From: an uncultured Planctomycetaceae bacterium
Lineage (GTDB): Bacteria; Planctomycetota; Planctomycetia; Planctomycetales; Planctomycetaceae
Assembly (NCBI GenBank): GCA_903896675.1
Contig: CAITYU010000377.1
Span: 25,713 to 89,712 of the forward strand
Direction: 5' to 3'
Length of the DNA: 64,000 nt
Shown here: one piece after another, positions 48 to 5,098 of the stretch
How positions within the stretch are numbered: the first letter of the stretch is position 1
Layout of the letters: each line of letters opens with the position of its first letter
The notes under the pieces: model-generated
Seen by the model: the letters and a program-made list of their open reading frames with translations, nothing else
Databases searched by the model: none
Told to the model about the DNA's origin: nothing
Translations under genes and position numbers: made by a program

Positions 48-1607
48 TTACTGCAGCAGTTCGTGGCGAATCTGACCACTGCCGGCAATGCGCAGCGGGC
101 GTCCCTGGGGATCGGGGATGGTAGCGTCATCCGGGAAGCCCAGCAGGTGGTAAGCGGTGGCCTGCATGTCCTTGGGGCTGATGGGTGTGTCGGCGACATC
201 ACCGCCGATGGCATCGCTGCTGCCTACGACTTTTCCCTGAGCCATGCCGCCACCTGCGAAGACGGATGAGTAGGTGCGGGACCAGTGATGTCTGGCGCCT
301 CCGCGGGGGCCACTGTCGATTTGTGGTGTGCGTCCGTGTTCGCTGGTGCAGAGTACGAGTGTTTCGTCGAGCAGGCCGCGATCCTGCAGGTCAGCGATGA
401 GTGCGGACCATGTCTGATCAAAGACCGGCAGCAGGTAATTTCGGAGTCTGGGGAAGTGATTGGAGTGGGTATCCCAGACGGAGGCACCGTGTGGTCCGAA
501 CGGATCCCAGAAGACTGATACAAAGCGAACTCCGGCTTCCACCAGTCGGCGTGCAGCGAGGCAGGACTGTCCGAAGAGGTTCATGCCGTAGCGGGAGCGG
601 GTGGCGTGGGATTCGCGGTGGACATCGAGAGCGTGGCGAATGCTGTGTGAGCCGACGAGTGAAAACGCGCGTTGCTGCTGAGCGGTCCAGTGGAGTGTTT
701 CTGCGGCGTTGTCGAGAGCGGAGCGGGCGGCATCGAAGCGGCTGAGCAGGTGTCGGCGGGCATCGAATCTGGCGGGTGACAGATCGGCTGGCAGCTGGCA
801 GCCATCGGCGAGTGTGAAGTGGCCTGCCGCATCGATTCCGGCATGGGGATCAAGAACCTGTTCGGTCTGAGAATCAGCATTGAGTGGCGGTACGACCACC
901 GTGCCGCGGCCCTGAAAGTCGGTCCAGAACGGATCGAAACCATTGCCGAGGAACGCGCCGTAGGGGCCTGCCTGATTGCTGGATGTGCCGCGTGAGCAGA
1001 ATCGCCACGGCAGTCCCACGCTGGTTGGCATGGAGGCTGGCTGCGATCGCTGGCGGGAATCGAGGTAATCGACAACGGAACCGATGAAGGGCCAGTGCTG
1101 AGGATCTCGTGGAGCTGTTTCCAGGGGAATGCTGTAGGTGGGCATTCCGGTCATGACATAGGCGCAGCAGTGGATCGGGTATTCGTGCGTCATGGAACGC
1201 ACGATGGTCAGGCGGTCAGCGATGGCGGCTGTCAGTGGCAGACCTTCACCGATCTGCAGTCCCGGTACGGAGGTGCTGATGGCCGACATTTCTCCCTGAA
1301 TTTCCCGGGGAGCGTGGGGTTTCGGATCGAAGGTTTCGTGCTGTGGTGGTGAACCGAACAGGAACACGAAGATGCAGCTTCTGGCTTTGGGTGCTGACCG
1401 GGCTGGTGCTGCGGCCTGCAGGCTGCTGAGCCCCAGTCCGCTGATGCCGCCGATCTGCAGCAGTTCGCGACGAGTCACGCCGTTGCACAGTTTTTTCGGC
1501 GAACCGCTGAGCATCAGCATGCGTGAATCCTGTGCGTGGGTGGGGTAAGAGGGTTTGGCGAGGCGCCGTGATTCCGGCATCATGCCGGCTTCAGTTGTCG
1601 GGGACAA
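48..1607 (-). CDS. DUF1501 family exported protein (Tat-like signal, sulfatase-like fold)
   Basis: Motifs typical of DUF1501: 'RRELLQIGGISGLGLSSLQ', 'FGSPPQHETFDPKP', 'LCTSEHGRTPQ'. Start uncertain; the longest ORF overlaps the upstream gene by 17 bp. Confidence 0.85.
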   Translation of the reverse strand: MSPTTEAGMMPESRRLAKPSYPTHAQDSRMLMLSGSPKKLCNGVTRRELLQIGGISGLGLSSLQAAAPARSAPKARSCIFVFLFGSPPQHETFDPKPHAPREIQGEMSAISTSVPGLQIGEGLPLTAAIADRLTIVRSMTHEYPIHCCAYVMTGMPTYSIPLETAPRDPQHWPFIGSVVDYLDSRQRSQPASMPTSVGLPWRFCSRGTSSNQAGPYGAFLGNGFDPFWTDFQGRGTVVVPPLNADSQTEQVLDPHAGIDAAGHFTLADGCQLPADLSPARFDARRHLLSRFDAARSALDNAAETLHWTAQQQRAFSLVGSHSIRHALDVHRESHATRSRYGMNLFGQSCLAARRLVEAGVRFVSVFWDPFGPHGASVWDTHSNHFPRLRNYLLPVFDQTWSALIADLQDRGLLDETLVLCTSEHGRTPQIDSGPRGGARHHWSRTYSSVFAGGGMAQGKVVGSSDAIGGDVADTPISPKDMQATAYHLLGFPDDATIPDPQGRPLRIAGSGQIRHELLQ

Positions 1608-3645
1608 CTGCAGAGGTCTGAAATTCGGTGGCAGGTTGCCATGCGAGTGCAGCGTAGTCCCGGACCATGCGATGCGAGCTGTATTGCCAGCCGAGGCTGA
1701 TGATGCTGTTTTTCATCATTTGCAGCCATTTGCCCGGCAGCCCACCGGGATCGCGCTCGTAGAACGGCGGTATGATCTGCTGCTGCAGGACCTGATACAG
1801 ACTGAGGGCATCGTGCTGGTCCTGAAGTTCGGGATCCGGGCAGTCACTGGCATCGCCGATGGCAAAGCCGTTGCTGCCGTTCCATGCTTCGGCCCACCAG
1901 CCATCGAGTGTGGAGCAGTTGAGGACTCCGTTGATCGCTGCTTTCTGGCCACTGGTGCCCGAAGCTTCCTGCGGGCGTCGGGGAGTGTTCAGCCAGACAT
2001 CGACTCCCTGCACGAACTGTCGTGCCAGATCGATGGAGTAGTCAGCGAGGATGACAACGCGCCCGCGGAATGGTGGCTGAGTTGCCAGTTGCCAGATGCG
2101 CTGCAGTATGAGTTTACCCTGTTCGTCTGCGGGGTGGGCTTTTCCGGCGAACAGCAGTTGTACGGGTCGGTTGGAATCCTGCAGCAGTCGGGCGAGCAGA
2201 TCGAGGTCTCGGAAGATCAGATCCGCGCGTTTATAGGCGGCAAAACGCCGTGCGAAGCCGATGGTGAGCGTCTGCGGGTCGAGGGGCTGGCAACCGGCGC
2301 GCTGGGCGACAATGTGCAGCAGTCGTTGTCGCAGGCTGCAGTGAGTCTGCCAGAGTTTCTGGTCATCAAGCTGCTGTAAAGCCTGCCAGTTGGCAGCGGT
2401 TCCCGGCTGATATTCCCAGTCCTGCGGCAGGAACAGGGTGTAAAGTTTTTTGAGTGACCGGGCAATCCATGTGCCCGGATGAACTCCGTTGGTGATGTGG
2501 CCGATTGGCACCTGATCCGGGCTGCGGCCGGGCCACAGGCCGGACCACATGCTGCGAGTCACTTGTCCATGAAGTGCTGAGACGCCATTGTGGAATCGGC
2601 TCATGCGAAACGCGAGGGCTGTCATACAGAAGGCTTCATCTGCGTCAGCGGGATTTGTTTTTCCCAGTGCCAGCAGTTGTGCGACGTCAAGACCGGCGGA
2701 GGCAGCGAGAGGCTGCAGGTGGGCTGCTGCCATGGGGGCCGGGAAGCGGTCATGCCCGGCCGCGACTGAGGTGTGAGTTGTGAAGACGACACCGGCAGCG
2801 GCGACGTCGCGTGCTGCACTGAAGGTGAGTCCATCCTCCACCATGCGTCGACGCAGATCTTCCAGCGGTGCAAAGGCGCAGTGTCCCTCATTGAGGTGCA
2901 CGACGGCGGGAGTGACCCCGATGGCCTGCAGGGCACGCATGCCACCAATGCCCAGCAGCAGTTCCTGGCGGATGCGGATCTGCTGGCCGGGGGCGTAGAG
3001 TCTGGCAGTCAACTGGCGATCAGCAGCAGAGTTTTCCGGGAGGTTGGCATCCAGCAGCAGCAGGCTGCTGCGGCCTGCGGCCAGTCGGAGAATTCGGAGC
3101 TGGACCACGCTGTCGGGCAGTTCCACGGAAATCCGAAGTGACTGTCCATCGGGTCGACGCTGCTCGGACAGTGGCAACTGCGACAGATCGAGCTGCGACC
3201 ACGATTCCTGCTGCCATCCGTGAGCATCGAAGCTTTGGTGGAAAAAGCCCTCGTGGTAGAAGAGCGAAAGACCCAGCATGGGAACTCCGAGGTCCGATGC
3301 GCTTTTCAGGTGATCTCCGGCCAGTATCCCAAGGCCTCCGGAATAGATCGGCAGGCTTTCATGAAGCCCGAATTCGGCGGAAAAGAAGGCGACAGGACCT
3401 GTCAGGCCCTGCAAATTGCGATCAGCCCATGTCGTGCGGGACTGAAGGTAGACCTGCTGGCGTTCAGCGGCCAGTTGCAGTTGTGGCAGCAGTTGCTGCA
3501 GGGTGGCTGACCTGTCGGGTTGATGCGATTGACCGCCGGCCAGAGAACTGAGCAGATCAGGGCAGTCTGCGTCCCAGCTCCACCACAGATTGTTGATGAG
3601 CTGTTGCAGCAGATTTTCTGCGGCTGGTGCTGGCGAGGTGGTCAA
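1591..3645 (-). CDS. glgP: alpha-glucan family phosphorylase
   Basis: 'FSAEFGLHESLPIYSGGLGILAGDHLKSASDLGVPMLGLSLFYHEGFFHQ', 'FARRFAAYKRADLI', 'NTPRRPQEASGTSGQKAAINGVLNCSTLDGWW'. Confidence 0.93.
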   Translation of the reverse strand: MTTSPAPAAENLLQQLINNLWWSWDADCPDLLSSLAGGQSHQPDRSATLQQLLPQLQLAAERQQVYLQSRTTWADRNLQGLTGPVAFFSAEFGLHESLPIYSGGLGILAGDHLKSASDLGVPMLGLSLFYHEGFFHQSFDAHGWQQESWSQLDLSQLPLSEQRRPDGQSLRISVELPDSVVQLRILRLAAGRSSLLLLDANLPENSAADRQLTARLYAPGQQIRIRQELLLGIGGMRALQAIGVTPAVVHLNEGHCAFAPLEDLRRRMVEDGLTFSAARDVAAAGVVFTTHTSVAAGHDRFPAPMAAAHLQPLAASAGLDVAQLLALGKTNPADADEAFCMTALAFRMSRFHNGVSALHGQVTRSMWSGLWPGRSPDQVPIGHITNGVHPGTWIARSLKKLYTLFLPQDWEYQPGTAANWQALQQLDDQKLWQTHCSLRQRLLHIVAQRAGCQPLDPQTLTIGFARRFAAYKRADLIFRDLDLLARLLQDSNRPVQLLFAGKAHPADEQGKLILQRIWQLATQPPFRGRVVILADYSIDLARQFVQGVDVWLNTPRRPQEASGTSGQKAAINGVLNCSTLDGWWAEAWNGSNGFAIGDASDCPDPELQDQHDALSLYQVLQQQIIPPFYERDPGGLPGKWLQMMKNSIISLGWQYSSHRMVRDYAALAWQPATEFQTSAVVPDN

Positions 3646-3680: not shown

Positions 3681-3714
3681 CAGCAAAACAACCTGCCCGT
3701 GAATGGGCAGGTTG
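3681..3714 (-). terminator. Rho-independent terminator downstream of the 33-aa ORF
   Basis: Perfect 10-bp inverted repeat CAACCTGCCC-gtgaat-GGGCAGGTTG (3689-3714); on the minus strand it is followed by TTTTGCTG. Confidence 0.75.
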
Positions 3715-3748
3715 CCATCATTTGGAGATTCCAGCCGGCAGCGGTCGA

Positions 3749-3850
3749 TCAGGACAGCTTGACGTGCTTGCGCTTCAGGCGACGGGCCTTGGAACTGGCT
3801 GGACGCTGACCGTGGTTGGATTTTTTCAGTTTGCGATGAGTTTTTGCCAT
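3749..3850 (-). CDS. very small, highly basic protein (33 aa): MAKTHRKLKKSNHGQRPASSKARRLKRKHVKLS
   Basis: Read on the reverse complement: ATG...TGA, 34 codons, 13 K/R and no D/E; followed about 35 nt later by an intrinsic terminator. Absent from the supplied ORF track (length cutoff). Confidence 0.75.
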   Translation of the reverse strand: MAKTHRKLKKSNHGQRPASSKARRLKRKHVKLS

Positions 3851-4195
3851 GATGACGCAATCCGGGAAACTTTCCTGTCTGCAGCAGCTGCGGCAGGGTC
3901 GGAGAAACAATTTGGAAACGGGGAAGGATACCGTGTCGCTGGCGACAGGGAAACCCCCGAGTGTCGCTCTGGAGCGGGTTTTCGCAAAAACCGGCGGGTG
4001 ATGATCAGAAATTCTATGGCGGTTCCCTGAATTCGTTGATATTTCGCCAGGAAGAGCGAATCAGAAGTGTGAAGATTTACGTATTGATGGATGAAAGCGA
4101 CAGGCTGTACCGCGCCACTGCGTCTTTCCGCTGAATTGGCCAGTAATGCAGAGAGTTTCCCGACGAATTCGCCTTAACCGAACGAGAGACATTTG

Positions 4196-5098
4196 ATGAA
4201 CTGGCTTAACTACCACCATCTTCTGTACTTCTGGACAGTTGCCAAAGAAGGCAGCATCAGCCGTGCGGCAGCCAGTCTGCACCTGTCACAACCGACGATC
4301 AGCGGTCAGTTGCGTCAGCTGGAGAAGTCGGTGGGCAGTAAGCTGTATGAGCGTCATGGGCGTTCGCTGCGTCTGACCGAGGTGGGTCAGGTCGTCTTTG
4401 AGTATTCGGATGAGATTTTCTCGACGGGTCGCGAGTTGATGGAGCGTCTGCGGGGGACTCAGCAGGGAGGCAGTCAGACGTTTACGGTGGGAATTCCGGA
4501 CTTTCTACCCAAGCAGGTGGCATTTCGCCTGCTGGAGCCTGTGTTTCGGATGCCCCAGAAGGTTTCTCTGGTGTGTCATGAGGGGAAGCTGACGGACCTG
4601 CTGGCTGAGCTGGCGATGCATCGGGCGGATTTGATTCTGTCTGACAGCACGGTGGGTTCGCAGGTCAGCGTGAAGGCCTACAACCATGCTCTGGGTGAAT
4701 CGGGAGTCAGTTGGGTGGCTTCGAGAGAGCTGGCGGAAATCCTGCGACCCGGATATCCGAATTCTCTGAAGGGTCAGCCTTTGCTGCTGCCCACGCAGAA
4801 CACGGTGCTGCGTCGTTCGGTCGAGATGTGGCTGGAGCGTCAGGATTTTGATCCGAATGTATCGGCTGAAATTGAAGATTCCGCATTGCTGAAGCTGCTG
4901 GCGGCTGAGGGTTTGGGGGTGGCTCCTGTGGCAAGTATTGTGCTGCGTGATCTGCAGGAGCGTTATGGACTGCATAGCATCGGTTCACTGGAGGGTGCAT
5001 CCATGCAGTTTTATGCGATCAGCGTGGAGCGTCGGGTGACACATCCGGCCGTGAAGGCAATTTCAGAAGCGGCGCGCAGTCAGTTGTTTCGCATCTGA
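4196..5098 (+). CDS. nhaR: LysR-family transcriptional regulator, NhaR-like
   Basis: 'MNWLNYHHLLYFWTVAKEGSISRAAASLHLSQPTISGQLRQLEKSVGSKLYERHGRSLRLTEVGQ' matches the NhaR-type HTH. ATG at 4196; the TTG at 4193 is less likely. Confidence 0.88.
   Translation: MNWLNYHHLLYFWTVAKEGSISRAAASLHLSQPTISGQLRQLEKSVGSKLYERHGRSLRLTEVGQVVFEYSDEIFSTGRELMERLRGTQQGGSQTFTVGIPDFLPKQVAFRLLEPVFRMPQKVSLVCHEGKLTDLLAELAMHRADLILSDSTVGSQVSVKAYNHALGESGVSWVASRELAEILRPGYPNSLKGQPLLLPTQNTVLRRSVEMWLERQDFDPNVSAEIEDSALLKLLAAEGLGVAPVASIVLRDLQERYGLHSIGSLEGASMQFYAISVERRVTHPAVKAISEAARSQLFRI

Follow-up and report, generated by a model that had tools for sequence, protein, structure and literature searches.

The ribosomal protein bL37 is called actinobacterial or mycobacterial in the publications that we examined. 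In M. smegmatis, it lies deep in a pocket made up of H39, H40, the joint of H41 and H42, H72, and H89, where, at the peptidyl transferase centre, it contacts the buried face of H89 (PMC5876184). In the published actinobacterial structures, it braces this helix. The C. acnes protein additionally meets the tip of the 5S rRNA (PMC10085706). In Borrelia, the bL37 pocket is filled by an N-terminal extension of uL30, and this long uL30 has been proposed as the ancestor of both bL37 and short uL30 (PMC10618245). The same 50S pocket holds CLaSP in Coxiella, a protein described as dissimilar to bL37 (PMC13392368).

Here, we describe a short gene in 64,000 nucleotides of DNA from an uncultured Planctomycetaceae bacterium, the whole of which we refer to as the window. 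It is almost certainly a single-gene unit that encodes bL37, a 50S ribosomal protein, in its planctomycete form. The features of the locus are as follows.

3749-3850, minus strand: bL37-family coding sequence of 33 amino acids, MAKTHRKLKKSNHGQRPASSKARRLKRKHVKLS, with an ATG start and a TGA stop (included in the coordinates)
3797-3829, minus strand: conserved core L-K-K-S-N-H-G-Q-R-P-A, codons 8-18, delimited by the invariant residues of the alignment and by profile matches
3861-3863, minus strand: candidate weak Shine-Dalgarno element GGA, about 10 nt 5' of the ATG, from the upstream sequences of 17 genus members
3689-3714, minus strand: hairpin CAACCTGCCC-attcac-GGGCAGGTTG of 10 bp followed by a weak T-run, a probable intrinsic terminator
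1591-3645, minus strand: downstream neighbour, a TIGR02094 alpha-glucan phosphorylase
4193-5098, plus strand: divergent neighbour, a LysR protein

A prior sequence-only reading of this DNA had proposed a minus-strand ORF of 33 residues, of which 13 are Lys or Arg, 3 are His, and none is Asp or Glu, and its coordinates, sequence, and composition are exactly as claimed. The protein (8 Lys, 5 Arg, 3 His, 0 Asp, 0 Glu; 39% Lys/Arg) has a pI of about 12 and a mass of 3.9 kDa. Among the 230 ATG-started ORFs of 25 to 60 amino acids in the window, it alone is acid-free and this basic. We rejected a longer, TTG-started form of 53 amino acids: conservation starts at the ATG, and because the residues upstream of it are not conserved, we take the ATG to be the start. 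The GGA at 3861-3863 stands where most congeners have CAGGA and is possibly a weak Shine-Dalgarno element.

Assignment to the bL37 family

The protein scores 65.3 bits (E = 4.5e-18) with the NCBIfam model NF047429.1 (ribo_Plancto_bL37, "50S ribosomal protein bL37," equivalog), which has a cut-off of 40. This match spans residues 1-32 and model positions 1-32 of 32, which makes the protein a member of that family. The actinobacterial model NF047428.1 (24 positions) gives 16.8 bits against a cut-off of 30, over positions 10-22 only, and does not confer membership; the likeness to this model extends over about 13 to 17 residues. Pfam has no family for the 33-residue protein. Two other assignments were rejected: bS22 (AURKAIP1-COX24), since the protein has no Pfam match and PF08213 is absent from the genomes of 59 relatives, and uL30 (PF00327/TIGR01308, or its N-terminal extension), since the ORF stands alone with 33 residues and no uL30 was found above the cut-off in the planctomycete genomes that were searched.

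The sequence-only reading had set this protein apart from bL34, bL36, and bS22, and in this it was right. An RNA- or ribosome-binding role, also suggested there, is probable. Its description as an unknown micro-protein does not survive, as a curated family that had not been considered, NF047429, is matched over its full length. Judged by sequence, the gene belongs to a family of ribosomal proteins that was catalogued before, and it is not an orphan. Because the ORF passes the NCBIfam cut-off, a PGAP run is expected to name it, and 3749-3850 on the minus strand should carry the annotation ribosomal protein bL37.

We aligned 32 family members drawn from across Planctomycetota. N12, H13, G14, R16, and P17 are invariant (32/32), and R6, A11, and R23 are nearly so. 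Residue 11 is a rare Ser in the window species and its two closest relatives, in place of Ala, and this is the sole difference of note between the window protein and NF047429. When the 32-sequence profile was compared with all PDB chains, it recovered Tetrahymena mL102 (E = 2.8e-7) and bL37 of M. tuberculosis, M. smegmatis, and C. acnes; the sole other matches were to two phospholipases A2, short and with E values of 0.6 to 2. These profile matches indicate that the core at 3797-3829 is common to the window protein, actinobacterial bL37, and Tetrahymena mL102. The core, (A/S)NHGxRP, was also detected reciprocally with solved bL37 chains, which places the protein in bL37 in the wide sense. Across 149 planctomycete genomes, NF047428 found loci of the bL37 family in 24 genomes plus one spurious extra match, which lies within a gene for an ABC-transporter-like ATPase but in another frame. 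The planctomycete model found a match in 1 of 14 control genomes, that of Corynebacterium.

One alternative is that the protein belongs to bL37 by descent but acts off the ribosome in planctomycetes, either as a chaperone for nucleic acids or as a nucleoid-associated peptide. The gene does lie outside any ribosomal operon, beside changing genes, and C. acnes bL37 is antimicrobial outside the ribosome in vitro (PMC10085706). We nevertheless regard this as very unlikely, given that the invariant part is the very core held in common with ribosome-bound bL37, that selection on the gene is as strong as expected of a structural ribosomal protein, and that mitoribosomal chains with the same core have been solved on ribosomes. 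Still less probable is a new micro-protein that binds RNA or DNA, has no relation to bL37, and resembles it through its basic composition, an idea that draws on the short sequence, its 39% Lys/Arg, and the weak single-sequence match to actinobacterial bL37. The reversed sequence, identical in composition, has zero matches in the PDB or NCBIfam, and reciprocal searches agree in reaching the same loci; the likeness is therefore not explained by biased composition. Moreover, only bL37 and mL102, and not other basic ribosomal proteins, are convincing among all PDB chains.

Conservation and surroundings of the gene

A six-frame search of the genomes of the 59 relatives recovered the gene in all 17 congeners and in all 19 other genomes of the same family, usually as a single copy with the stop at the same place; in one congener, the main match is truncated by the end of a contig. 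Among 17 sequences (16 congeneric genomes plus the window's own), pooled pS is 0.70 and pN is 0.058, for a pN/pS of about 0.08 with synonymous sites near saturation. In the 17 genus sequences, the other reading frames contain many stops. Frame, start, and stop are kept across the family without frameshifts. Flanking genes vary between loci, with a glgP-type gene downstream in 11 of them (window included) and other genes elsewhere.

These results cover checks that the sequence-only reading had attached to its claim of a real micro-protein gene: conserved in-frame orthologues lie beside diverse genes, a dN/dS-type comparison of them gives a low ratio, and the frame loss or frameshifts that would have counted against the claim did not appear in relatives. 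The ORF is a real gene under strong purifying selection. A spurious ORF, which the very short length and the failure of a promoter scan to find a sigma-70-like promoter upstream might suggest, is refuted by the family-wide conservation of frame, start, and stop, the pN/pS of 0.08, and the lack of frameshifts, and its probability is negligible.

Two records from these searches deserve separate mention. One metagenome-assembled genome, G012, holds two different bL37 genes (contigs C1097 and C924; loci L087 and L101), 85% and 76% identical to that of the window; a paralogue and contamination of this 1260-contig bin are equally likely. The record JAJFIP010000092.1, filed as "Emcibacter sp.," carries a planctomycete bL37 (locus L113), and because its flanking genes match those of the Gimesia loci L106, L107, and L127, the record name looks wrong.

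On the 3' side of the gene, the hairpin at 3689-3714 comprises 10 Watson-Crick pairs and 2 G-U pairs, and the stretch folds at -26.4 kcal/mol (z-score, -3.34). The T-run that follows is short and interrupted (UUGUUUU). At the same place, about 10 of the 17 genus sequences have either a CCTGCCC/GGGCAGG hairpin, in most cases followed by a longer T-run, or another hairpin that takes its place. We consider the hairpin a probable intrinsic terminator. The sequence-only reading had credited the gene with a terminator of its own; the 10-bp stem stands, and similar hairpins occur in relatives, but the T-run is weak and a pattern-based terminator scan did not call the hairpin. The flanking glgP and divergent nhaR that it had named hold up as a TIGR02094 phosphorylase and a divergent LysR gene. 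For the latter, NhaR is the best model with 218.2 bits; this falls 0.8 bits short of the NCBIfam cut-off of 219, and the name nhaR is likely but not certain.

bL37 and uL30 across Planctomycetota

With a broad profile, a convincing bL37 match (E < 1e-3) was found in 51 of the 149 phylum-wide genomes. The NCBIfam bL37 cut-off was passed in 19 of the 149, with many broad-profile matches falling below it, and three families of the same class (f2, f3, and f4) had no bL37 match. Because bL37 is absent or undetectable in about two-thirds of this sample, planctomycete ribosomes do not all depend on it. A wider scan of contigs yielded 295 loci and was limited to the 80 best, which by match are all close relatives; other phyla were represented by the 14 control genomes. 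Phage-borne copies were also considered, and none of the 11 pattern matches in viral contigs was confirmed.

The protein uL30 (rpmD) is known to be non-universal (PMC3353972), and it appears from our searches to be absent from Planctomycetota. No match of any kind was found in 148 of the 149 phylum genomes, the one exception being spurious, and a second model gave none above the cut-off in the 59 relatives either. By comparison, uL30 is present in 12 to 13 of the 14 control genomes. Partial uL30-like matches in G040, G031, and G010, all below the cut-off, were rejected: those in G040 and G010 fall within long frames of unrelated sequence, and that in G031 holds a stop. The origin of bL37 by splitting of a long uL30 fits badly here, because Planctomycetota have bL37 without uL30 and further losses would be needed. 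The sequence family speaks for bL37 as an independent protein.

Possible mitochondrial relatives and probable place in the ribosome

Residues 62-88 of Tetrahymena mL102 (6z1p chain AQ), RNARPPKKANHGARPCSSVMRRLKKKY, give a gapless alignment with the planctomycete profile over both the core and the tail (E = 2.8e-7), and the core piece is best recognised by the planctomycete bL37 model, NF047429 (5e-6). This Tetrahymena piece matches the Toxoplasma mitoribosome chains mL184 (9g6k chain UI) and mL102 (9i05 chain AH), two independent models, at SARYPKKGNKGCRPVCRAMRKIRKR. These Toxoplasma chains seem to carry the bL37 core and tail as well, more weakly than Tetrahymena mL102. Unlike the planctomycete protein, the mL102 and mL184 pieces are mitochondrial, embedded in longer proteins, and below the bacterial cut-offs, and Toxoplasma has NKG for NHG. 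The publications on the Tetrahymena and Toxoplasma mitoribosomes that we examined do not name bL37. This likeness in sequence may be unreported so far, and it is the sole part of the finding of which this may be said.

Because the core is conserved, the same pocket is the best guess for planctomycete bL37. The invariant NHGxRP core would sit in the 50S pocket of H39-H42, H72, H89, and the 5S tip. The basic C-terminal tail that the planctomycete protein has in addition is predicted to be helical and would continue along the rRNA, perhaps on a course to the A-site side like that of the C-terminus of Tetrahymena mL102. A single-sequence AlphaFold2 model, in itself weak evidence, has a helix at residues 20-32 (mean pLDDT, 83; pTM, 0.35). 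By analogy with the solved forms, we infer that the planctomycete protein binds the ribosome, where it would probably stabilise the rRNA near H89, the tip of 5S rRNA, and the base of the stalk. Nothing points to a regulatory role. Its contacts cannot be identical to those of Tetrahymena mL102, because the Tetrahymena mitoribosome lacks 5S rRNA. A limited literature search found no planctomycete ribosome structure, ribosome proteomics, or paper on planctomycete bL37; the tail, the 5S tip, and H89 are a concrete target for the first such structure.

A broader proposal, which we offer tentatively and consider doubtful as a whole, is that bL37 is an ancient 50S protein with a patchy distribution, retained in Actinobacteria, in Planctomycetota, and, under the name mL102, in the mitoribosomes of alveolates. 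A C-terminal basic helix that the actinobacterial form lacks would be common to the planctomycete and mitochondrial forms and would reach towards the A-site tRNA; these forms would then be a second functional version, found in a phylum of bacteria that has no uL30. As a gene, the ORF is ordinary, and there is modest interest in the variant and in the mitochondrial link. Together, the planctomycete family and the link to mL102 show that the label "actinobacterial" or "mycobacterial" is too narrow for bL37.

The Borrelia uL30 extension and Coxiella CLaSP are comparable to bL37 by their published pocket. The actinobacterial protein (5o60 chain 3, 7kgb chain v, and 8crx chain V) is comparable in sequence: like the planctomycete form, it is small and acid-poor, and it has the shared core, as (A)NHGKRP, after basic residues. 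The two differ in what surrounds this core. Actinobacterial bL37 has 24 residues, with 16 before NHG, and ends 2 residues after RP, whereas in planctomycete bL37 about 11 residues precede NHG and a basic tail of 12 to 18 residues follows RP. M. smegmatis bL37 is described as an N-terminal helix followed by a C-terminal loop (PMC5876184), whereas the single-sequence model of the planctomycete protein places its helix at the C terminus.
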